This document shows, in pieces, positions 4,271 through 44,616 of a stretch of DNA of 64,000 nucleotides (its first letter is position 1; each line of letters opens with the position of its first letter). A program made the position numbers and the translations under genes. The stretch is from an uncultured Microbulbifer sp. GTDB lineage: Bacteria; Pseudomonadota; Gammaproteobacteria; Pseudomonadales; Cellvibrionaceae. The stretch is from NCBI RefSeq assembly GCF_947504145.1, contig NZ_CANNGQ010000002.1:806001-870000 (forward strand), read 5' to 3'. The notes under the pieces were generated by a model. That model was given only the letters and a program-made list of their open reading frames with translations. It searched no databases and was not told the DNA's origin.

Positions 4271-5977
4271 TTACAGCCACCCGAGTATCAGGTAAATCCC
4301 CAGCAGCAGTACTACACCGGCCACCATGCTGCCGGTGAGCCAGTTGCGGGCCATGATGCCGTCGGCGCGGTGGTGCACCGTCACGCCTTCCACCAGCCGT
4401 GCAACACCGCCCACGGCCGCGGTGCGCAAGCGCTGGTCGAGGGCGAACAGGCGGTTGAACAGGGTGCGCAGGACGTCCGGCACCAGGCGGCGGTAGATCC
4501 ACTCCACATCCAGATTTACCGATGGCAGCTCTGGCGGGTACAGGTGGCGCAGGTTCAGCCATACGAAGGCCAGGGCGGAGAAGAACAGCAGCTGCAGCTG
4601 AGTCAGCACGTGGGTCACATCGTAAGGCGTGTAGGCCACCTCGTGGGGTAGCAGGCTGTACAGGGCCTGTGGATAGATACCCACAGTCAGACACAGGGCG
4701 GCGGCGATGCTCATGGCGATCAGCATATTCACCGGCGGCTCCCGCGCTGGCAGCTTGGCGTCGTGGGCGAAGAAGGCGAAGTAGGGAATCTTGATGCCCG
4801 CATGGTGGAACACCCCGGCGGAGGCGAACAGCAGGATCAGCCATACCCAATCGTGCCCGTTCTTGATGGCCGCGCTCATCACCATGGACTTACTGACAAA
4901 GCCGCTGAACAGGGGGAAGGCGGAAATGGACGCGGCGCCGATAATACACAGCACCGTGGTCTTGGGCATTTTCTTGTACAGGCCGCCGAGCTCTGAGCCG
5001 TTGATCTTGCCGGTCACATGTAGCACCGCCCCCATGGACATAAACAGCAGGCCCTTGAAAATCACATCGTTAAAGGCGTGGGCCACGGCGCCGTTGATAG
5101 CCAGCGAGGTGCCGATGCCGATACCTACTACCATAAAGCCCAGCTGGTTAATCAGGCTGTAGGCCAGTACCCGGCGCAGGTCGTTTTCGATCACCGCAAA
5201 GAAGATCGGGAAGCAGGCCATGGTGGCGCCGATGTATACCAGCAGCTCGGTGCCCGGGTAGGCCCGCGCCAGTGCGTAGATGGCTACCTTGGTGGTGAAG
5301 GCGCTCAGGAATACGGTGCCCGTGGGTGTGGACTCCGGGTAGGCGTCGGTGAGCCAGTTGTGGAAAAAGGGGAAGGCGCACTTGATGCCGAAGGCGAGGA
5401 AGATCATCCAGCTGTAGGCGCTCTCATTCAACCCGATCTGGCCAAATTCCAGGGAACCGTGGGTCTGGCTATAGATGATGATTCCGCCCAGCAGCAACAG
5501 CCCGGAGAGGATATGCAGGGTGAAGTAGCGCAGCCCGGCCATATAGGCGCGGCCACTGCGCCGCGCCCACACCAGGAATACCGAGGTCAGTGCCAGCAGT
5601 TCCCAGAAGATAAACAGAGTCAGCAGGTCGCCGGCAAACACCGCACCCAGGGCACTGCCCGCGTACAGCATGCTCGCTACCTGTTGCAAAGTATCGCGCA
5701 CGTGCAGGGCATAAATGACCGCGATCAGGGCTGCGATATGGAACAGGTAGCCAAACAGCAGGCTGAGTTTATCCGTCTTGAACAGCAGTAAATTAAAATC
5801 GAGAACGGTGTAGTGGCCGAACTCCACGCCCGCGTCGGCACCGGCACCCAGCTGCCACAGATTGATAAGGCCGAGAATCGGTACCGCGATAAACAGCAGC
5901 GCCCGCGCCCAACCGCGCAGGAAAAGTCCTAAAGCCGCGGCAATAAAAAACGGAATAAACGGAGCAATTTCAAGCAT
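4271..5977 (-). CDS. Mrp/Mbh-type antiporter subunit D-like protein (third copy)
   Basis: A 568-residue polytopic membrane protein of the proton-conducting NuoL/M/N-MrpA/D family. The conserved core is visible, for example the region around LLTLFIFWELLALTS, whose glutamate matches the TM5 Glu of the family, and KCAFPFFHNWLTDAYPEST, the family K-x-(6-8)-H-x-WL signature. It is the last gene of the operon and overlaps the preceding small gene by 8 bases. It is longer than the other two D-like subunits, having a hydrophilic stretch near residues 470-530 followed by a final helix. Presumed role: proton or cation channel half in a multi-subunit antiporter. Confidence 0.9.
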   Translation of the reverse strand: MLEIAPFIPFFIAAALGLFLRGWARALLFIAVPILGLINLWQLGAGADAGVEFGHYTVLDFNLLLFKTDKLSLLFGYLFHIAALIAVIYALHVRDTLQQVASMLYAGSALGAVFAGDLLTLFIFWELLALTSVFLVWARRSGRAYMAGLRYFTLHILSGLLLLGGIIIYSQTHGSLEFGQIGLNESAYSWMIFLAFGIKCAFPFFHNWLTDAYPESTPTGTVFLSAFTTKVAIYALARAYPGTELLVYIGATMACFPIFFAVIENDLRRVLAYSLINQLGFMVVGIGIGTSLAINGAVAHAFNDVIFKGLLFMSMGAVLHVTGKINGSELGGLYKKMPKTTVLCIIGAASISAFPLFSGFVSKSMVMSAAIKNGHDWVWLILLFASAGVFHHAGIKIPYFAFFAHDAKLPAREPPVNMLIAMSIAAALCLTVGIYPQALYSLLPHEVAYTPYDVTHVLTQLQLLFFSALAFVWLNLRHLYPPELPSVNLDVEWIYRRLVPDVLRTLFNRLFALDQRLRTAAVGGVARLVEGVTVHHRADGIMARNWLTGSMVAGVVLLLGIYLILGWL

Positions 5978-9660: not shown

Positions 9661-10737
9661 TTAACCAGCTCCCTGTTCCAGCGGCTGCTTGGGGGCGGCA
9701 GGATTCGAATCCCCGCGTGGATCATTTTTGTTCCCGATCGACAGCACCGCTTCGCGGTCGCGCAATTGTGCGGAGAACAGATAGGAAATCATGATCATCA
9801 CCGAGGCGACGGTTATGCCAACGCCCAGCTCAATCACGATAATACCGATGTGCTGGCCGGTGACCGGGTCACCGGCCAGGGCGCTGTAGTCGAGAAAGTT
9901 TTTGCCGCTGGCAAAACTCAGCAGGCCAGTGCAGCCAAAGATCAATACCCCTACCGCTGACAGCAACTGGACCAGCCCGTGACTGGCCACCTTGTGCACC
10001 GCATCCAGGCCAAACACCAAGCTGTAGAGAATAAAGCCCACGGCAAAAATAACCCCTGCCTGAAAGCCGCCGCCGGGGCCGTACTCACCGTGGAACTGTA
10101 CGTAGAGTGCATACAGCATGATCGGAGCAATAAGTACCTTGGCGACCACGCGCAGAACAATATCGCGGGATTGTTGCTGTACCGGTGATTGTTCACGCAG
10201 AACCTGTGACTGGGAGGCGTTCGCCATCAGCAGTGACAACACTCCGAGTCCGGCGGTAAAGATCACCACTACCTCACCAAAGGTATCGAAGCCGCGGTAA
10301 CTGGCCAGAACCGAGGTGACAATATTGGGGATACCGATCTCTGCCATGGACTCCTGGATGTAGTGCGGCGCTACATGTGTCTGGGCCGGCGCGTCGGGAT
10401 CGCCAAACGACGGCATATCCACGGTGGCGGTGACCAGCAGTGCGCCAACGGTAGCCACCAGAATCATTGCCAGGCGCGCGCGATTGCGATCAGCGCGCTG
10501 GTAGCGGCCGCAAAGGGCGAGCGTTAACAGAATCAGCAGCGGGGAAATTCCGGCACCCACCGCGGCCTCGGTAAAGGCCACGTCCACGGCGCCCATGGTC
10601 ATGAAAAAGCCCGCAGAAAGCAGCCCGTAAATGCCGGCCAGCATGGCCGCGGCAAACAGGTCTTTGATCCAGGCAATTGAAACGGCAGTAACAAGCAATA
10701 GTGCCAGTAGTGCGATATCCAGCAACAGGTCCATCAA
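9661..10737 (-). CDS. Fused MrpA C-terminal (MbhD/MbhE) and MrpB subunit
   Basis: A 358-residue membrane protein joining modules that are separate or differently fused in classical Mrp systems. Residues about 1-85 match the DUF4040/MbhD part of the MrpA C-terminus (GVGxGISPLLI-like helix with FTEAAVGAGIS). A middle helix region resembles MbhE. From about residue 190 it is MrpB/MnhB-like, with the YGPGGGFQAGVIFAVG signature. No MrpA N-terminal antiporter module is attached; the D-like copies elsewhere in the operon probably replace it. The gene lies 53 bases after mrpG. Confidence 0.92.
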   Translation of the reverse strand: MMDLLLDIALLALLLVTAVSIAWIKDLFAAAMLAGIYGLLSAGFFMTMGAVDVAFTEAAVGAGISPLLILLTLALCGRYQRADRNRARLAMILVATVGALLVTATVDMPSFGDPDAPAQTHVAPHYIQESMAEIGIPNIVTSVLASYRGFDTFGEVVVIFTAGLGVLSLLMANASQSQVLREQSPVQQQSRDIVLRVVAKVLIAPIMLYALYVQFHGEYGPGGGFQAGVIFAVGFILYSLVFGLDAVHKVASHGLVQLLSAVGVLIFGCTGLLSFASGKNFLDYSALAGDPVTGQHIGIIVIELGVGITVASVMIMISYLFSAQLRDREAVLSIGNKNDPRGDSNPAAPKQPLEQGAG

Positions 10738-10790
10738 TCACATTCCCAATTTCTTTGTTTTGATTTCATAGCCGTTGCTCTTGTCAGCAC

Positions 10791-11201
10791 TCAGGTGCGT
10801 GTATCAACCGCCGTTTCAGGTTCAGGGCCCGCTGTATTGCTTTCGGAAGTCGCCATTGTGCGCGTACGCTTGTTGTTTTTGTGGGTGGCTTCCGCTGGCA
10901 TATGGGGCAGCCGTAGGGCGCTGAGCTGGGCCGAGCGCGCCAGTGCATGGCTGGCGGTAGGGCTGGTAAAGAAAATAAACAGCATAATCAGGCCGAGTTT
11001 GAACAGCGCCAGGCTCCAGCCCGCTGCCAGCATCAGCCCGCTAATTATCAGGAAGGTGGCCAGGGTGTCGGTAATACCCGCTGCGTGCATACGCGAATAA
11101 TAATCCGGGAACCGCAACAGGCCTATTGCACCGGTCAGCATAAAAAAGCAGCCCAGTAACAACAGCAGGCCACTGGCGTAACTCAGCAGAGTGTCAATCA
11201 C
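10791..11201 (-). CDS. Mrp-type antiporter subunit G
   Basis: A 136-residue MrpG/PhaG-like protein with three helices at the N-terminal two-thirds: LLLLGCFFMLTGAIGLLRFPDYYSRMHAAG carries the family RFPD-YxRxHAAG signature. A hydrophilic Thr/Lys-rich tail follows. Its start overlaps the end of the MrpF gene by 8 bases. The subunit is structural in the Mrp complex. Confidence 0.93.
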   Translation of the reverse strand: MIDTLLSYASGLLLLLGCFFMLTGAIGLLRFPDYYSRMHAAGITDTLATFLIISGLMLAAGWSLALFKLGLIMLFIFFTSPTASHALARSAQLSALRLPHMPAEATHKNNKRTRTMATSESNTAGPEPETAVDTRT

Positions 11202-11478
11202 GGGTGGCCTCCGGTGTGGAGTCGGCGTTGCTGTTGCGGAATTCGAAATAGCGCAGCACGCCGATCACACTGACGAAGTTGATCAGGGCGTAGACCAGGG
11301 CGATATCCAGGTATTCCGGCTCACCCAGAGTGAAGCAGATAACCGCAATCAACAGGACCGTTTTGGTTCCAAACATGTTCACGGCCAGAATGCGGTCGTG
11401 AATGGTCGGGCCGAGTACGGCGCGAGTCAGAGCCAGCGCCATTACCACCAGCAGCGCGATCAGGGTTGCGTTCAACAT
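11194..11478 (-). CDS. Mrp-type antiporter subunit F
   Basis: A 94-residue MrpF/PhaF-like protein with three helices and the family pattern RAVLGPTIHDRILAVN, then ALVYALINFVSVIGVLRYFE. It shares one base with the end of MrpE and overlaps MrpG by 8 bases, as expected for a coupled Mrp operon. Confidence 0.94.
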   Translation of the reverse strand: MLNATLIALLVVMALALTRAVLGPTIHDRILAVNMFGTKTVLLIAVICFTLGEPEYLDIALVYALINFVSVIGVLRYFEFRNSNADSTPEATRD

Positions 11479-12008
11479 CAGTTCTTCTGCTCTGCGGGTC
11501 GATGGGACCTGGGCCTGTTTTCTGTCAGCGCGGCAATGCGCTTCTCCATTTCTCCCTGCTTTACTTCCTCCAGCCCGTTGCGGGTCAGAGCGTGAACCAG
11601 CACCGAATTGTTGTCGATATCGATGGCGACGGTACCCGGGGTAAGGGTGATGGAGTTGGCGTACAGTACTCTGCCGAGATCGGAATGCAGGTTGGTGTGA
11701 ATGCGTTCGCTGCAGGGGGATATGGCTGTGGTGGCGTGTTTGCCTGACAGTAGCCCTTTCCAGACACAGGCCGCGACTTCCAGATTGCTGGAAATGATTT
11801 TACGCAGTAACCAGAGGTAATACCCCGGCAGGGTCGACCACAATTCCAGGGGAAGGGATTCCCCGTCCACCACTTTCATACGGCGGGCAATCAAGATGAC
11901 GAACAGAATGGAGGCCAGCCCGAACGCAAGAATCAACGGCGTGTAGTGGCCGGAGTTTGTCAGCCAGATAAAAGCGAGTACTGCGAAAAGACAAAATGTG
12001 TAACGCAT
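11478..12008 (-). CDS. Mrp-type antiporter subunit E
   Basis: A 176-residue MrpE/PhaE-like protein, the first gene of the operon. Two N-terminal helices are followed by the characteristic soluble part with LLRKIISSNLEVA and the SITLTPGTVAID motif. The ATG at 12008 follows a 100-base gap from the next gene, which is the likeliest place for the operon promoter. Confidence 0.93.
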   Translation of the reverse strand: MRYTFCLFAVLAFIWLTNSGHYTPLILAFGLASILFVILIARRMKVVDGESLPLELWSTLPGYYLWLLRKIISSNLEVAACVWKGLLSGKHATTAISPCSERIHTNLHSDLGRVLYANSITLTPGTVAIDIDNNSVLVHALTRNGLEEVKQGEMEKRIAALTENRPRSHRPAEQKN

Positions 12009-12110
12009 GAAAGTTCCACAAATTCAGGCCACAGAAAAAGTTTACACGCGGCCGTTAGGTGTTCGGTGGGTATGCATTTTCTTACCCCGATGGTTTGCTC
12101 GGGTTACTTA

Positions 12111-12563
12111 TTAGGATGTCGACTCGCACTGGTAGTGGCGGTCAAACACACTCAACAAAGCGGACTTCGCCGTGGCAGTTTCGGTAAACGGCTGGGAAAT
12201 TTCTGCCACTCGGACAATCAGCGTATCGATGGTTGCACTCGCCGGCAGGCAGTAGCGGCTGCTGAGACGTTGCCTGGCGTCGTCGGAAAGGCGGGCAGCC
12301 CGGGTTCGGATGGCGCGGGCTACAAAGCCGGAGGGACGCTCGTCAACCGCAACAATATCGTTACTCGCGGACAGATAGCCCTGAATGAATGCCTGGCAAC
12401 TGGAAGAGCCGGGCTGCTGCTCTGCCTGGTGGTTCTTGCACGCCTCTACCAGCTTCGTTGCAGTGAGAGGTTCAGCTAGTACACCGGGTGTCAGGCCAAT
12501 TGTCAATGCGGCGACGGCCATAGGGGCAATCACTGCGCGCAGTTGTCGCTTCATACTCATCAC
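12111..12563 (-). CDS. Small exported protein, Rap1a/Tai-like
   Basis: A 150-residue protein with a signal peptide (cleavage near VLAEP, about residue 30) and four cysteines in the mature part in the pattern C-x(n)-C...YCLP...QC. This arrangement, with an SSCQAFIQGYLSA-type helix, resembles the Rap1a/Tai family; members next to type VI effectors act as immunity proteins, while many stand alone. No effector gene is visible here, so the role is open. It lies alone between ispA and the Mrp operon. Confidence 0.7.
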   Translation of the reverse strand: MMSMKRQLRAVIAPMAVAALTIGLTPGVLAEPLTATKLVEACKNHQAEQQPGSSSCQAFIQGYLSASNDIVAVDERPSGFVARAIRTRAARLSDDARQRLSSRYCLPASATIDTLIVRVAEISQPFTETATAKSALLSVFDRHYQCESTS

Positions 12564-12849
12564 CTTTTTATTCTTATTTGTATTTTTAGTGCTGCACTGG
12601 CCTGGGCACCCTCCATTTTGTTTTGCTTTCGCGAGGTGTGCGTGGCTTGAAAACTGTGCAAGCTGTAGTAAATCTTGCAGAGTTTTGGGTGTTCGTCAAA
12701 TTTGTTCGGGTACCAGAAGGAAGGTTTTTTCTGGTTTTATTTGTCGCTTGTGACGGCAATTGAAGGGATTACGTTATTTCAGGAAAGAGTGGTGCACAAT
12801 ATTTCACAAGTTTTGGCAAAATTTGCTGTGCGTATTGTTGTGTGGGGGG

Positions 12850-17952: not shown

Positions 17953-19266
17953 GTGTCATCGGAAACGGCAAAGCCCCCGGTTGCGGGGGATAAAACCATC
18001 ATCACCAACTTGCGGCGCCTTACCGCGCTGCGAGCCATCGCCCTGTCTGCGTATATCGGCGTCAGCCTGTGGCTGGCGGATTCCCTCAGTGGTGGCGCCC
18101 TGGCGTTTGTACTGCTGGGGGTGATCACCACCCTGATCAGCGGCTGGCGCGCCCGCGGCAGCGTCGCGGTGGGGCGCCCCGAGTTTTTCGGCCATCTGTT
18201 GATGGACTGGCTGTGGCTGCCACCGCTACTAGCGTTCAGTGGCGGCGCCGCCAATCCGTTTGTGACCTATCTGCTGGTGCCGCTCACCATCGCTGCCGCC
18301 ACCCAGCCGCGGGTCTACGCCTGGCTGATGGCGGGCATCAGTATTGCCATCTATACCGGGCTTATGGCGTTCTTTCCGGGCGTTGACGCTGGCCACAGTT
18401 CCCATGCCGGACACGGTATGGGGCATGACATGGGGCAGGGTAGTGGCGGCGATTTTTATCGCCATCTCATCGGCATGTGGGCCACCTTCACGTTTTCTGC
18501 ACTGTTGATCGCCGGGTTCGTCAACAGCATGGCGGAAGCCCTGCGCAGTCGCGATCGTCATCTGCACCAGTTGCGTCAGGAACAGGCACGGCGGGATCAG
18601 GTGCTCGCTCTCGGCACCCTCGCTGCGGGTACGGCCCACGAACTGGCCTCACCGTTGCAGACCATCGGCCTGTTGGTGGAAGAGCTACAGGCGCAGCTCG
18701 GGGAAAACGCCCCGGGAATGCGTGAGGATCTGGCGCTGTTGCAGCAGCAGGTGCGCCTGTGCAAGCAGGCGCTGGAGCAGCTGAAAAGCCGCGCGCGGGA
18801 CCCGGAGGGCAGTGATGAACCACAGCCGGTGGCAAAATTTATCGACCGCAGCCTGGAGCGCTGGCAGCTGCTGCGCCCGGAGGCCCGTTTTGCGCTGACC
18901 CGACAGGGGCCGCCGGCGCTCACGGCGCGCCTGCCACTTACTTTGGAGCAGACCCTGATCAATGTATTAAACAACGCCATGGACGCCACCTTGGCGGCGG
19001 GCAGTCAAAACCCGGTGGCGATCTCCGCGCACTGGAGCGCGCACAAATTGCGTATGGAGATTGCCGACAACGGGCGCGGAATGAATGCTGAGGGTGAATC
19101 CGGCGGTTTTGGCATCGGCCTGCTGCTGAGTAAAACGGCACTGGCGCAGCTGGGTGGGCAGCTCACCCTGGCAGCAGGGGACGATCACACCGGTACCGTT
19201 GCCACCATCGAGCTGCCGCTGGATACCGAAACCGAGACGGAGCGGAACGAGGGCATGCTGTCGTGA
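17953..19266 (+). CDS. RegB/PrrB-like redox sensor histidine kinase
   Basis: A 437-residue kinase with six predicted helices (about residues 28-190), a GTG start, the H-box HELASPLQTIGLLVEEL (His229) and an ATPase domain with ADNGRGM and GFGIGL. Residues 97-103 read GGAANPF, matching the GGxxNPF quinone-binding heptapeptide of the RegB/PrrB family. Cys270 (VRLCKQA) sits where RegB has its redox-active cysteine. An unusual His/Met/Gly-rich loop at about residues 147-160 (GHSSHAGHGMGHDMG) could bind copper or another soft metal on the periplasmic side. It overlaps the regulator gene by 4 bases. Confidence 0.9.
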   Translation: MSSETAKPPVAGDKTIITNLRRLTALRAIALSAYIGVSLWLADSLSGGALAFVLLGVITTLISGWRARGSVAVGRPEFFGHLLMDWLWLPPLLAFSGGAANPFVTYLLVPLTIAAATQPRVYAWLMAGISIAIYTGLMAFFPGVDAGHSSHAGHGMGHDMGQGSGGDFYRHLIGMWATFTFSALLIAGFVNSMAEALRSRDRHLHQLRQEQARRDQVLALGTLAAGTAHELASPLQTIGLLVEELQAQLGENAPGMREDLALLQQQVRLCKQALEQLKSRARDPEGSDEPQPVAKFIDRSLERWQLLRPEARFALTRQGPPALTARLPLTLEQTLINVLNNAMDATLAAGSQNPVAISAHWSAHKLRMEIADNGRGMNAEGESGGFGIGLLLSKTALAQLGGQLTLAAGDDHTGTVATIELPLDTETETERNEGMLS

Positions 19267-19817
19267 GCGAACATCGGCTGCGCCTGTTAATCGTCGATGA
19301 CGAGCAGAGCACCCGCGATATGCTCGATCGGGCCATGACCCGCCGCGGGTTCGACACCCGTGTTGCGGAGTCTGTGGATGAGGCACAGGGGCTGATCGCG
19401 CGGGAAAAGTTCGACTGTGCCCTGCTGGATCTGAAAATCCACCACGACAGTGGCCTGGAGCTGATCGCTCCCCTGCGCTCCGCCAACCCGCGTGCGCGGA
19501 TTATTCTGCTCACCGGCTACTCGAGTATTCCCACCGCCGTGGCGGCGATCAAACTGGGGGCGGACGACTACCTGTGCAAGCCCGCGGGGGGGGAGCAGCT
19601 GGTAGCGGCTTTGATCGGTGAGCAGGGGAGTGCCGTTGAGGAATCGGAGCTACCGGAAATATCCAGCGCCCCTCCTTCGGTAAACCGCCTGGCGTGGGAA
19701 CACATCCAGCGGGTGCTCGCCGAAAACGATGGCAACATTTCCGCAACCGCCCGCGCACTGGGTATGCACCGGCGAACGCTGCAGCGAAAATTACAGAAGC
19801 GGCCCAAAGGGCAGTGA
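19263..19817 (+). CDS. RegA/PrrA-like response regulator with Fis-type HTH
   Basis: A 184-residue regulator. The receiver domain has the acidic pair in VDDEQ, phospho-acceptor Asp56 (CALLDLK), a Thr in LLTGYSS and Lys in CKPA. A short linker leads to a Fis-type helix-turn-helix (NISATARALGMHRRTLQRK) at the C-terminus. Length and order match the RegA/PrrA/ActR family, partners of RegB kinases that control redox-responsive genes. The GTG start overlaps the kinase stop (GTGA). Confidence 0.93.
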   Translation: MSEHRLRLLIVDDEQSTRDMLDRAMTRRGFDTRVAESVDEAQGLIAREKFDCALLDLKIHHDSGLELIAPLRSANPRARIILLTGYSSIPTAVAAIKLGADDYLCKPAGGEQLVAALIGEQGSAVEESELPEISSAPPSVNRLAWEHIQRVLAENDGNISATARALGMHRRTLQRKLQKRPKGQ

Positions 19818-19850: not shown

Positions 19851-21404
19851 TCAGGGCAAAAAGTTTTCCAACTGCCGCCCGCCACCCTGGATCTCCCGCT
19901 CCATCAGAAAATGCGCAAGCGCGCGCTTCTGGCTGTCGCTGAACGCGTAATTGGGCATCGGCGGCGTCGGCGTATCAAAATAGTCCGCCAGCTGCTTGAG
20001 CGTGTATTTGCGGCTCAAATCTCGGAGTGGAATCTGCTGGTGGCAGCGCACGCAATTGCGGCGCTCGTAAATCTGCGCCCCCTGGCGTGCCGCACCGCCG
20101 TCAATGGCGAGAGGTTTTTTCGGGGCGCTGATAGGGGGGCGATTGGCGACTGGCGCATCCCTATCGTTCTGGTGGGCTTCACCGGGCTGAACCCGATAGA
20201 CCGCACCGGCGTAATCATCGGAAATATAAATATTGCCGCGCACATCCTCAGCGATATCCACCGGGCGGCCGTACACCGTGGTTTTGTCTTCCCCGAGAAA
20301 GCCCCACATAAAGTCTTCTGAGTGGATGCTGCCATCTTCCCTCCAGTGCAGCGCCACCACCTTGTAGCCATCCTTCACATCTCGGTTCCAGGAACCGTGC
20401 AGGGCGACCAGTGCGGCTTCGTGGTAGCTATCAGGCTGCTCCGGGCTGCGCAGGAAGTGCATGCCCAGCGGCGCATTGTGCGCGCGAAATTCGAATACAG
20501 GAGGAACGGACGATGCGATTGTCTGCTGAACCTCGCCGTCCATTATTTTGCCATCCTTACCCACACCAAAATCCGGGTCGGGAATCCGGTTGCCATTGGC
20601 AAAGGGCCAGCCGTAGAAATTTCCCTGTTCAATCCGGTTCAGTTCACAGGGTGGAAAGTCATTGCCAAGCCAGTCGCGGCCGTTGTCGGTTGCATAGAGC
20701 GCCCCATCTTTTGGCGACCAGTCAAACCCCACACTGTTGCGCAGGCCGGTGGCGTAAATCTGAAAATGGCTGCCATCCGGGCGGAAACGCATGATCGTTG
20801 CGCGCTGTGCGTCTTCTTCGATACATACATTGCAGGTAGAGCCGCTGGAAAGATACATCCAGCCATCTGGGCCCATACCCAGAGTCTTGGTCCAGTGGTT
20901 GCCGGTATCGGCGAGGCCGGTGACGACTTTCTGGTAGCTGCCCGCGATGCGGCCGTCGGAATGATCAAAGGGCACGCGTCCCACGCCGTTGCTTTCCGCG
21001 ATATACAGCCAGTCTTCAAACAGCACCAGGCCGTGGGGGCGCTGCAGGCCGTCAATCAGTACACGCTGTCCGTCAGTTTCACCATCACCATTGCGGTCGG
21101 TGAGCAGCAGGCTCACCTGGCCGAGCTTTGGCTGCGACACCAGCAGATCGCCGCGACGGGTCACCGCCATAAAGCGTGCGTTGGGCACATCGTCACTAAA
21201 CAGGTGCAGACGGTAGCCGGGCGCGAGCTGCAAATGGCGTTCAACGGTTTCTTCGTCTGTACTTGCGCCCAGCAATTGTCCCCACGGCACATTGATGCCG
21301 GGTACAAGCCCCGCCAAAACAGCTGTAATCAGAAGAATGACGCCAATGGCAGTAAAAGCCACCACACGGTAAAAAGTTAGCGCCTTTTTCGACGGAGTTC
21401 TCAC
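19851..21404 (-). CDS. PQQ-type sugar dehydrogenase with C-terminal cytochrome c
   Basis: A membrane-anchored glucose/sorbosone dehydrogenase-like beta-propeller (LQRPHGLVLFEDWLYIAE, GLRNSVGFDWSPKDGALYATDNGRDWLG) followed by a c-type cytochrome. The heme site is CVRCHQ and the distal Met is probably in PPMPNYAFS. The frame is open to 21491 (546 residues), but the GTG at 21404 places a single N-terminal anchor helix at residues 14-35 and gives 517 residues; I prefer it, though no strong ribosome site decides. It should oxidise a sugar or aldose outside the inner membrane and pass electrons to the respiratory chain. The CRP-like site lies upstream at 21515-21530. Confidence 0.88.
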   Translation of the reverse strand: MRTPSKKALTFYRVVAFTAIGVILLITAVLAGLVPGINVPWGQLLGASTDEETVERHLQLAPGYRLHLFSDDVPNARFMAVTRRGDLLVSQPKLGQVSLLLTDRNGDGETDGQRVLIDGLQRPHGLVLFEDWLYIAESNGVGRVPFDHSDGRIAGSYQKVVTGLADTGNHWTKTLGMGPDGWMYLSSGSTCNVCIEEDAQRATIMRFRPDGSHFQIYATGLRNSVGFDWSPKDGALYATDNGRDWLGNDFPPCELNRIEQGNFYGWPFANGNRIPDPDFGVGKDGKIMDGEVQQTIASSVPPVFEFRAHNAPLGMHFLRSPEQPDSYHEAALVALHGSWNRDVKDGYKVVALHWREDGSIHSEDFMWGFLGEDKTTVYGRPVDIAEDVRGNIYISDDYAGAVYRVQPGEAHQNDRDAPVANRPPISAPKKPLAIDGGAARQGAQIYERRNCVRCHQQIPLRDLSRKYTLKQLADYFDTPTPPMPNYAFSDSQKRALAHFLMEREIQGGGRQLENFLP

Positions 21405-21514
21405 GATTGTCTTGATCTCGTAACAGAAGTAACTATAGTAAGCCGCTGAATGTCGCACAGACGTACCAGTTGCGATACGCGCCAGCCGCATCCAAAAGAC
21501 CTGTTCAGGTTAAA

Positions 21515-21530
21515 TGTGACGCCCGTCACA
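21515..21530. promoter_or_regulatory. CRP/Vfr-like operator
   Basis: The sequence is a perfect match to the CRP consensus TGTGA-N6-TCACA and is fully palindromic (N6 is CGCCCG). Its centre (21522.5) is 21 bp, two helical turns, upstream of the centre of the GacA-box palindrome. It could serve the sRNA gene to the right, the sugar dehydrogenase to the left (start at 21404), or both. Confidence 0.6.
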
Positions 21531-21534
21531 TGCT

Positions 21535-21552
21535 TGTAAGACATCTCTTACA
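21535..21552. promoter_or_regulatory. GacA-type upstream activating sequence
   Basis: TGTAAG at 21535-21540 and CTTACA at 21547-21552, separated by six bases, exactly match the TGTAAG-N6-CTTACA box known upstream of rsmX, rsmY and rsmZ in Pseudomonas. The palindrome extends one more base on each side. Its centre lies about 65 bases before the predicted sRNA start, the spacing seen for known GacA-controlled sRNAs. Confidence 0.85.
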
Positions 21553-21595
21553 ACAAGTTCAGCACTTTCCCACTACCTTAACTTTCTCTTTCGAC

Positions 21596-21601
21596 CATAA
21601 T
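21596..21601 (+). promoter_or_regulatory. -10 element of the sRNA promoter
   Basis: CATAAT differs from the sigma-70 -10 consensus at one base. There is no recognisable -35 hexamer 17 bases upstream (near 21573-21578), which fits an activator-dependent promoter driven by GacA bound at 21535-21552. Confidence 0.6.
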
Positions 21602-21607
21602 GTATTT

Positions 21608-21745
21608 GCAAGGACGGAGAACGGATTGCAACGGCGGCAAGGACAGGTTCCCAAGGAATGGAGACCGCGCTGCCAAGCTCGAAAGGATTCGGGCACCATC
21701 CTGTGAGACGCACCGCTTGGGCCGGATTGCCTAAGCGGTGTTTTA
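21608..21745 (+). ncRNA. Rsm/Csr-type small regulatory RNA (candidate)
   Basis: About 138 bases between a GacA-box promoter and a strong terminator, with no credible protein frame. It contains eight GGA triplets (at 21612, 21616, 21623, 21641, 21655, 21660, 21685, 21724), four in ARGGA context (CAAGGAC twice, CAAGGAAT, AAAGGAT), the core CsrA/RsmA recognition element. About two would be expected by chance. Length matches RsmX/Y/Z (roughly 110-140 nt). Inferred role: titration of a CsrA/RsmA protein under GacS/GacA control. The 5' end is inferred from the -10 element and may be off by several bases. Confidence 0.8.
21711..21744 (+). terminator. Terminator of the Rsm-like sRNA
   Basis: A 12-bp stem (CACCGCTTGGGC at 21711-21722 and GCCTAAGCGGTG at 21729-21740, one G-T pair) with loop CGGATT, followed by TTTT and a further TTTT a few bases on. 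The last GGA of the sRNA lies in the loop. Confidence 0.88.
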
Positions 21746-22225
21746 CGTTTTGGGGTAGCGAAAAAGTCATTGTGATTTTTTACGCGGCTCCGGATGTCTA
21801 TACAAGTGTTGCCAAAACACGTCATTGCTCTCGCGCCCATCACCTCATGCCACTTATCCGTGCTTTCCAAGCTTGCCGTTTTTTGTGATTTTTCACCATA
21901 ACGGGCAAAGTGTCTGGAAATCGTAACAAACCTCCGCTTTAATCAGGACAGGACGGTCCAACATCGTGACCGCGGAGGATGACGCATTCAGTAACTTAGT
22001 GCTGTTAAGGCTTCTTACGCAACCACCTTTTCTCCATTGGTGGGCAAGCCTTCATCGGCTCCAGATTTCGCTGTATTCCTCCAGCTCCACTCGCTTTCCC
22101 AAATTCTTCCCCGACTTCTCCCAACGCATCCCCAATATTGTTCTGTCGTATTACTTACAAAGCCTCGCAGGATCGTCCGCGGGGCTTTGTGCATTTTGCC
22201 GTTCGCAACATTCGGAGGTGGACTC
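21745..22225 (+). other. Structured non-coding leader upstream of the HNH gene
   Basis: No convincing protein frame. It holds two notable inverted repeats. CCTCCGC at 21931-21937 pairs with GCGGAGG at 21972-21978, enclosing a nested GGTC/GACC. CAAAGCCTCGC at 22158-22168 pairs with GCGGGGCTTTG at 22179-22189, an 11-bp stem with one G-T pair, followed by GTGCATTTT. The second hairpin ends 36 bases before the HNH start and could be an attenuator or a stabilising leader structure. Confidence 0.5.
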
Positions 22226-22813
22226 GTGCAAGCACAAATCCTGAGGTTGAATCTCGCCGGGCAGCCACTGGAATGGCTGAGCTGGGAAGAGGCCGCCTGC
22301 CTGTATGTGCGGGAACTGGTCACCTGGACACTGGGCGGTGTCGTACAGACCGTACACGGCGGCATCAATCGCCTGGGCGAACGCTCCACCCTCGATCTCG
22401 CCGCCATCATCGCCTGCGGCGGTGACCGCATGGCCCGCCCCCGCACCCGCCCACCGCTCAACAACCGCGCCCTGTTCGCCCGCGACCAGCACACCTGCCT
22501 CTACTGCGGCAACGGATTCACCATCCGCGAACTCACTCGCGACCACATCCACCCCGTGTCCAAAGGCGGCCGCGACATCTGGCAAAACGTCGTCACCGCC
22601 TGCCGGCGCTGCAACCAGCACAAGGGCAACCGGTTGCTGGAACATATCGATATGGAATTACTGGCGCTGCCGTTTGTGCCAAATGCTGCGGAATATCTGG
22701 CGCTGACCAACAGCGCGCGGATTCGTGGGGATCAGATGGAGTTTTTGCGAGGGCAGTTTTCGCGGAAAAGGCAGGACGGGTGGTTGTCAGAAGTAATGCC
22801 TCAAGCAATTTAG
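22226..22813 (+). CDS. HNH endonuclease
   Basis: A 195-residue HNH nuclease. The GTG at 22226 is chosen because a perfect GGAGGT ribosome site lies at 22214-22219 with a six-base spacer; the frame is open farther upstream without one. The core has CLYCGNGF, RDHIHPVSKGG and NVVTACRRCNQHKGNR, that is two CxxC zinc pairs and the H-N-H triad. An N-terminal region (about 80 residues) precedes the domain. Standalone relatives occur widely in gammaproteobacterial chromosomes without an assigned role. No phage or intron context is seen. Confidence 0.9.
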   Translation: MQAQILRLNLAGQPLEWLSWEEAACLYVRELVTWTLGGVVQTVHGGINRLGERSTLDLAAIIACGGDRMARPRTRPPLNNRALFARDQHTCLYCGNGFTIRELTRDHIHPVSKGGRDIWQNVVTACRRCNQHKGNRLLEHIDMELLALPFVPNAAEYLALTNSARIRGDQMEFLRGQFSRKRQDGWLSEVMPQAI

Positions 22814-44565: not shown

Positions 44566-44601
44566 ATCCTGCGAGTCCATCCTGCGAGTCCATCCTGCGA
44601 G
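44566..44601. repeat. 13-bp tandem repeat, 2.8 copies
   Basis: ATCCTGCGAGTCC occurs twice in full and once as ATCCTGCGAG, immediately after the terminator and just before the yceI stop codon (minus strand). Non-coding; likely a slippage repeat. Confidence 0.8.
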
Positions 44602-44616
44602 ACGGAAATCAAACGA

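Follow-up and report, generated by a model that had tools for sequence, protein, structure and literature searches.

A probable GacA-activated CsrA-sponge RNA gene of Microbulbifer with a conserved linker that may base-pair with csrA and mRNA 3'UTRs

The window analysed here, a stretch of 64,000 nucleotides, holds a previously unannotated candidate gene for a 138-nt sRNA of the Csr/Rsm type (21608-21745, forward strand), recognized by its GGA motifs, its predicted fold and its conservation. A GacA/UvrY box, TGTAAGACATCTCTTACA, lies upstream on the same strand (21535-21552) and is kept across the genus in this form or in forms like TGTGAGATATCTCGCACA. The sequence-only reading of this DNA had claimed a perfect GacA box, and the element is indeed an exact TGTAAG-N6-CTTACA palindrome, the sole exact match in the 4.36-Mb genome. 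The lone site with one mismatch falls within a LysR-family gene and was rejected as a second GacA box. A -10-like CATAAT (21596-21601, forward strand) begins 43 bases past the box end, and the transcript presumably starts near 21606-21608. The distance of 65 bases formerly given from the box to the -10 does not hold for these two elements, but it fits the span of about 64 bases from the box centre to the presumed start. The -10-like element is present in all extracted copies of the gene, the extraction pattern itself having demanded such a site. A promoter search of 21400-22300 found no consensus -35 for the sRNA, and its lone promoter-like match (21412-21439) is away from the sRNA start. Between the box and the -10, a stretch of the TCAGC-N5/6-CCC type is widely kept by eye, also in the long copies described below.

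Directly upstream of the GacA box, the alignment read by eye reveals a CRP/Vfr-like dyad, TGTGACGCCCGTCACA (21515-21530, forward strand), of the form TGTGA-N6-TCAC. In the clade nearest the window its half-sites are kept and its centre varies among 14 distinct sequences, and a degenerate dyad occupies this place in the remaining Microbulbifer (both by eye). We call the dyad CRP-like by the CRP consensus; the genome has three matches to Crp-type HTH proteins, and CRP might bind and control the gene at this site. Pfam identifies two further proteins close by, at 17953-19817: a histidine kinase-type ATPase and a short response regulator that carries a Fis-type HTH. By eye, the pair appears RegB/RegA-like.

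The unit itself is rich in CsrA-type motifs. The sequence-only reading had counted eight GGA, four of them as ARGGA, in a 138-base unit, and this count is correct for 21608-21745, with GGA at 21612, 21616, 21623, 21641, 21655, 21660, 21685 and 21724. At least eight GGA are reached with P 0.019 in dinucleotide shuffles and 0.016 in mononucleotide shuffles, and among 6,388 slices cut from the window at step 20 on both strands, 26 have as many (sRNA locus included). The segment 21606-21747 folds to -61.1 kcal/mol (z -3.8). In the predicted minimum-energy fold, hairpin 1 (21606-21631, forward strand) has a TTGCAA stem, missing in some relatives by eye, and presents a GGA in its loop. The predicted hairpin 2 (21633-21674, forward strand) carries AAGGA motifs on an inner stem that varies two-sidedly among species (GGTC/GACC, GATC/GATC and GATT/AATC, by eye). 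Hairpin 3 (21677-21694, forward strand), predicted by folding a 22-nt piece, forms with its loop GGA in all 39 aligned sequences through 16 distinct stems, such as GCCC/GGGC, GCCAA/TTGGC, GCCTAA/TTAGGC and GCTCA/TGAGC. A conserved intrinsic terminator with another GGA in its loop closes the unit (21710-21745, forward strand): its stem spans 21710-21741, a short T run comes next and ACG after it, and four of the stem pairs are changed on both sides yet kept. The terminator was rightly recognized before, although its stem has 13 pairs and not 12. Furthermore, RNAalifold yields 26 consensus pairs, and in seven of these both bases differ in at least one sequence without loss of the pair. The segment that separates hairpin 3 from the terminator is a near-invariant linker, CCATCCTGTGAGACG (21696-21710, forward strand), which we propose as a base-pairing strand in view of its conservation and its complements elsewhere.

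Rfam gave no gathering match in the window, and for 21400-22300 no Csr/Rsm family reached E<=10, so that the rsmX/rsmY/rsmZ models, once proposed as a check, came back empty. No Csr/Rsm family appeared at E<=1 either for three long-copy and three sister-genus loci, and phage records showed no match.

A DNA search of 58 genomes found the sRNA locus in its own genome and in 36 of 36 others of the genus, the weakest of these matches having E 6.5e-7. The 21 genomes from other families yielded no match below E 0.0099. Likewise, a 20-mer from the sRNA has 25 matching stretches in the genome collection, all labelled Microbulbifer. We extracted 42 distinct transcripts, 39 short and three long, with a pattern that took only copies with CATCCTGTGAGA and a -10 of set form and left out the one in G007, which was read separately. 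The short copies are 124-138 nt long (127-141 nt as extracted) with 6-8 GGA, and their length variation and gaps not in threes speak against the conservation of a reading frame. A second, enlarged tandem copy of about 290-375 nt (293-377 nt as extracted) is present in M. flavimaris, M. guangxiensis and G036, with 18, 18 and 24 GGA, most of which the predicted ensembles leave unpaired; in M. hainanensis there are two copies, both short. The enlarged copies have the 5' start and the 3' linker-terminator in common with the short copy, and the 3' end of the longest is uncertain because it shows no clear T run.

The proteins expected to act with such an RNA are encoded in the genome. The sequence-only reading had made its interpretation depend on gacA and csrA, and homologues of both are there. 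One CsrA gene scores above the NCBIfam cut-off. The UvrY homologue, 53% identical to that of E. coli and adjoining uvrC and a CDP-alcohol phosphatidyltransferase (pgsA-like) gene, reaches 276.6 bits, just below the cut-off of 280 for the UvrY/SirA/GacA NCBIfam model. The BarA homologue is the clear best match (369 bits vs 165 for the next kinase), and its 583 is well below the strict NCBIfam cut-off of 890. In three other Microbulbifer genomes (G010, G006 and G014), csrA-like genes are unusually expanded to 17, 9 and 6 at E<=1e-8. These genes are mostly about 50-68% identical to canonical CsrA, some of them with an internal stop, and canonical csrA is absent among these matches in G010 and G014.

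Collectively, the locus is very probably an unannotated GacA/UvrY-activated sRNA gene of the CsrB/RsmZ kind, with the upstream box, the GGAs in loops, the noncoding terminator-ended unit and the encoded CsrA, UvrY and BarA that mark this class. The earlier claim of a GacA-controlled, CsrA-binding RNA gains computational support from the box, the GGA hairpins, the terminator, the paralogues and the partner genes, and from these sequence features we infer that the sRNA is transcribed, depends on GacA and binds CsrA.

The stretch CACCATCCTGTGAGACGCACCG between hairpin 3 and the terminator is nearly constant while the rest of the sRNA drifts, and the pre-terminator strand CCAUCCUGUGAGACG, which contains no GGA, is kept in 36 of 37 genus genomes. 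The exception is G007, a smaller, 80% complete genome in which the sRNA is present and the linker is missing. The linker motif CATCCTG is the reverse complement of CAGGATG; in E. coli csrB, CAGGATG occurs six times and CATCCTG not at all. A general pre-terminator motif was considered and rejected, as TCACAGGATG is found in the 60 nt before none of 58 predicted terminators, which come from the window and 25 loci around the sRNA (27 have CATCCTGTGA, those being the sRNA copies).

Versions of the linker are also found in sister genera. A covariance model of the genus, run with strict filters on 390 genomes of the order, matched 10 Microbulbifer genomes, among them the own one. Outside the genus it reached three genomes, a pair from one sister genus (E ~2e-5) and a single one from a second sister genus (E 0.07); the other 377 gave no match at E<=0.1. 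The three sister-genus RNAs (L090, L091 and L092, in two genera) are preceded by TGTACG-N6-CGTACA in place of TGTAAG-N6-CTTACA, possibly a shift of GacA specificity, and the pattern TGTAMG-N6-CKTACA has one site each in G092 and G242. In five more sister genomes, every site of a looser box was retrieved (43 in total), and four of the five yielded box-led RNAs that carry the linker ahead of a terminator (L149, L151, L162 and L182). These have 4-7 GGA in their best 120 nt, and L149 and L162 have only four, a count also reached at other box sites. The fifth genome, G153, yielded nothing but a long GGA-rich RNA that lacks the linker. A box-led RNA with a version of the linker before its terminator is found in seven of eight sister-genus genomes. 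The RNA of G125 sits before a gene that by eye resembles the HNH neighbour of the window's sRNA, itself assigned by Pfam. Box-led GGA-rich RNAs without linker were seen as L157 and L158 (G125) and as L179 and L183 (G282). Linker-bearing and linker-less Csr-type RNAs coexist in both genomes, and in G125 two linker-less ones are about 1.9 kb apart.

Complements of the linker, which the sequence-only reading had not described, occur elsewhere in the genome. Upstream of its start codon, the csrA leader of the own genome reads AAAUCACAGGAUGAUCAAGGAG. The linker complement UCACAGGAUG lies beside the Shine-Dalgarno sequence in all 17 canonical csrA leaders recovered from the 22 Microbulbifer genomes in which they were sought; of the other five, two gave divergent paralogues alone and three had no match at the cut-off. 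Genome-wide, UCACAGGAUG occurs 13 times in the own genome vs 0 for a reversed-pattern control and 41 times in five genomes vs 6 for the control (sRNA and csrA included in both). We do not use these counts as evidence because about eight per genome are expected from the length by our own arithmetic; the place and strand of the sites are used instead. With the csrA and sRNA copies left out, 9 of 11 sites in the own genome lie at most 70 nt past the stop of a same-strand frame of at least 200 codons, a placement shared by 4.4% of 6,000 control positions in the window, and none lies past a stop on the opposite strand. Five of the 11 are also before a terminator, vs 0.37% of controls. In four other genomes, 7 of 19 sites are past a stop on the same strand (4 of 19 also before a terminator) and 2 of 19 on the opposite strand. 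The nine genes of the own genome encode a GH18 chitinase, the ribonucleotide reductase small chain, two TonB receptors, an aldehyde dehydrogenase, a peroxidase (katG by eye), an EAL-HDOD protein, a GH97 enzyme and a carbon-nitrogen hydrolase. Exact UCACAGGAUG sites recur between genomes only at csrA and the peroxidase gene. Given the other 3'UTR sites, the csrA leader was rejected as the unique target of the linker.

Within the window, the best complement outside the sRNA is 15 nt long with one G-U (44590-44604, reverse strand), a maximum that only 1 of 30 shuffled linkers reaches. It belongs to three tandem complements of 15, 12 and 10 nt, every one with a single G-U; they lie in the 3'UTR that follows a YceI-family gene (Pfam), ahead of its terminator (44566-44604, reverse strand). 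In number, the window complements of at least 9 nt (29, sRNA included) are not above those of shuffled linkers (mean 38), nor are those of at least 10 nt. Among 20 pieces fetched from relatives, 16 held yceI, and the four without a yceI match were not counted. In these 16 genomes the perfect complement in the yceI 3'UTR is 15 nt long in four, 11-13 nt in seven, 9 nt and so within the shuffle range in one, and 4-6 nt in four, where the site is absent; shuffled yceI 3'UTRs reach at most 8-10 nt. The pieces were chosen for yceI, so their 12 terminator-linked sites are no independent evidence. In one relative (L226 of G029, 10042-12822), the yceI 3' end is partly duplicated together with the linker complement, and the yceI of one sister genus (G337) has no linker complement.

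A possible pairing site, CTCGCAGGAT (22164-22173, forward strand), is part of a hairpin that precedes the HNH endonuclease gene, and we regard it as weak because 10-nt matches in the window are not above shuffles. CAGGAT is on the loop side of the hairpin AAAGCCTCGCAGGATCGTCCGCGGGGCTTT (22160-22190), which is upstream of the same gene. In about 0.8 Mb of sister-genus DNA, the only 3'UTR site of this kind was one looser triple repeat past a stop codon. At L267 of G282 (about 4957-5010), a 515-codon frame is followed, shortly past its stop, by a triple TTC(A/G)CAGGAC that resembles the yceI triplet. Across seven genera, linkers matched the csrA leader of their own species better than swapped ones did by run length (P 0.026) but not significantly by duplex energy (P 0.25), and shuffling the flanks gave P ~0.001. 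The resulting covariation between linker and csrA leader is suggestive, not decisive; the match to csrA is partly broken in g26 and g23, and the sister-genus fit to csrA is partial.

Within Microbulbifer we thus find a conserved seed with conserved complementary sites in mRNAs. The strand and place of the complements argue for an element acting at the RNA level, and four genomes match the whole linker, GGA-free part included; on both grounds we think that the linker pairs. On these sequence comparisons, pairing of the pre-terminator linker with UCACAGGAUG, at the csrA leader as well as in the 3'UTRs of mRNAs, has, in our estimate, about an even chance of being real.

A tentative but serious alternative is that the RNA is a plain CsrA sponge, whose linker acts only inside the molecule as a long-range partner of the 5'-terminal GGA; the closing helix would guard the 5' end or an RNase E site before the terminator, and UCACAGGAUG elsewhere in the genome would represent ordinary CsrA binding sites. 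RNAalifold indeed pairs GC-AGGA of the 5' end with UCCUGU, and the partition function of the free RNA pairs the linker UCCU with the first GGA (21612-21614) at a probability of about 0.5-0.7, depending on the assumed start. The minimum-energy fold leaves this UCCU open. The first GGA is the best internal partner of the linker in 27 of 45 RNAs vs 7.7 expected, but it is not so in 12 of 39 short copies, the three long copies and three sister-genus RNAs, and the internal helix shows no two-sided change in RNAalifold. RNase E is described to cut CsrB just upstream of the terminator unless CsrA protects it, in the passages cited from PMC7652899, and this cut position corresponds to the place of the linker in the Microbulbifer sRNA. 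The six CAGGATG of E. coli csrB make UCACAGGAUG resemble a CsrA site, and in the csrA leader it can form a UCA[CAGGA]UGA hairpin by eye; the GGA contexts of the sRNA itself (CAAGGA, AAAGGA, CGGA and UGGA), however, differ from CACAGGAUG. Nor does a plain sponge predict a complement of 11-15 nt in the yceI 3'UTR, which includes the GGA-free CGUCUC part. An internal clamp as the sole reason for the linker is only partly supported by RNAalifold, the internal-partner test and the partition function, and the modelled pairing with the first GGA may be a rival function or a switch.

Two further explanations carry much less weight. The linker and its complements could be a double-stranded DNA element before terminators with no RNA pair, since the sRNA linker and many complements are just upstream of intrinsic terminators. 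This is very unlikely, for the orientation is biased towards the mRNA strand, both past stops (9 of 11 sites vs 0 of 11 on the other strand in the own genome; 7 of 19 vs 2 of 19 in the four others) and before terminators (10 of 30 vs 0 of 30), and the csrA site sits in a 5' leader beside the Shine-Dalgarno sequence. That box, GGAs and hairpin came together by chance, or that the locus codes for a protein, could be argued from the P of only about 0.02 for the GGA count by itself and from a 103-codon ORF that overlaps on the minus strand. Box, GGAs and fold are each modest singly, but their conservation in all 37 genus genomes rules out chance, and gaps not in threes speak against coding, so that we assign almost no probability to this explanation.

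Returning to the reading of the RNA as a sponge with a pairing strand, we propose that phosphorylated GacA would bind the box and switch on the noncoding RNA of about 138 nt, whose GGA hairpin loops would bind and titrate CsrA and free CsrA-repressed mRNAs. Because the UCACAGGAUG sites resemble CsrA sites, the sRNA would oppose CsrA in two ways, through titration of the protein and through masking of the sites it targets, and the pairing may compete with CsrA. One RNA molecule would then sequester CsrA and occupy or expose CsrA target sites. CsrA bound to the first GGA may free the linker, which would otherwise be partly paired internally. Another possibility is that the sRNA is itself sponged by tandem complements in 3'UTRs, the yceI triplet being an example. 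That the GacA-controlled sponge is also a base-pairing regulator of csrA and of a small 3'UTR regulon is a proposal whose odds we hold to be evenly balanced; the regulon would comprise yceI and the genes for the GH18 chitinase, the peroxidase, the ribonucleotide reductase small chain, the TonB receptors and the GH97 enzyme, among others.

Csr/Rsm sponges are generally described as protein decoys, and CsrB and CsrC of E. coli are controlled by UvrY. The Microbulbifer sRNA is like CsrB and CsrC in its many GGA hairpin loops and its terminator, and its enlarged tandem copies are of CsrB size (369 nt and 22 GGA for E. coli csrB); unlike them, it has no Rfam match, a short form with 6-8 GGA and an anti-GGA linker. 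RsmX, RsmY and RsmZ are of similar length, but the Microbulbifer sRNA differs from them by the lack of an Rfam match and by a conserved linker with genomic complements. In Pseudomonas, RsmX/RsmY/RsmZ have 6-10 GGA and an upstream sequence recognised by GacA, and the 110-nt rsmX-1 and rsmX-2 stem from tandem duplication (PMC7911923); in GGA number, GacA-type upstream sequence and tandem duplication, the Microbulbifer sRNA is like the Pseudomonas RNAs as portrayed in the parts of that source cited here. Other marine gammaproteobacterial examples belong to other genera: CsrB/CsrC homologues with a GacA box, detected by RNA-seq in Marinomonas mediterranea (PMC8523701), and Aln1a-c of Alteromonas, an A(N)GGA-rich triplet of RNA-seq-detected sRNAs of the CsrA-binding type (PMC5864184). 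The passages cited from these two reports mention no base-pairing strand. McaS of E. coli combines CsrA titration with mRNA base-pairing (PMC10729762), but it is a base-pairing sRNA with four GGA, whereas in Microbulbifer a GacA-box sponge would have gained a strand against CsrA-type sites. For the Csr sponges Pf1-3 of Pseudoalteromonas fuliginea, the cited part of PMC11882849 gives imperfect mRNA pairing predicted in silico; this pairing is a software prediction, while the Microbulbifer sRNA has a nearly invariant strand with conserved complements. A search of mainly open-access literature found no Csr sRNA of Microbulbifer and no GacA-controlled sponge with a conserved antisense strand or a shown pairing strand.

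In conclusion, the sponge itself would be a further member of a known sRNA class, to which it adds an RNA family without an Rfam match, and its short and long tandem pairs show how an RNA as small as RsmZ can become as large as CsrB. If it pairs, the linker sets this sRNA apart. The conserved complementary strand goes beyond the sequence-only reading; if the proposal is true, protein titration and antisense pairing would be joined in one GacA output, with a concrete list of targets in a marine genus that includes chitinase and other polysaccharide-related genes.
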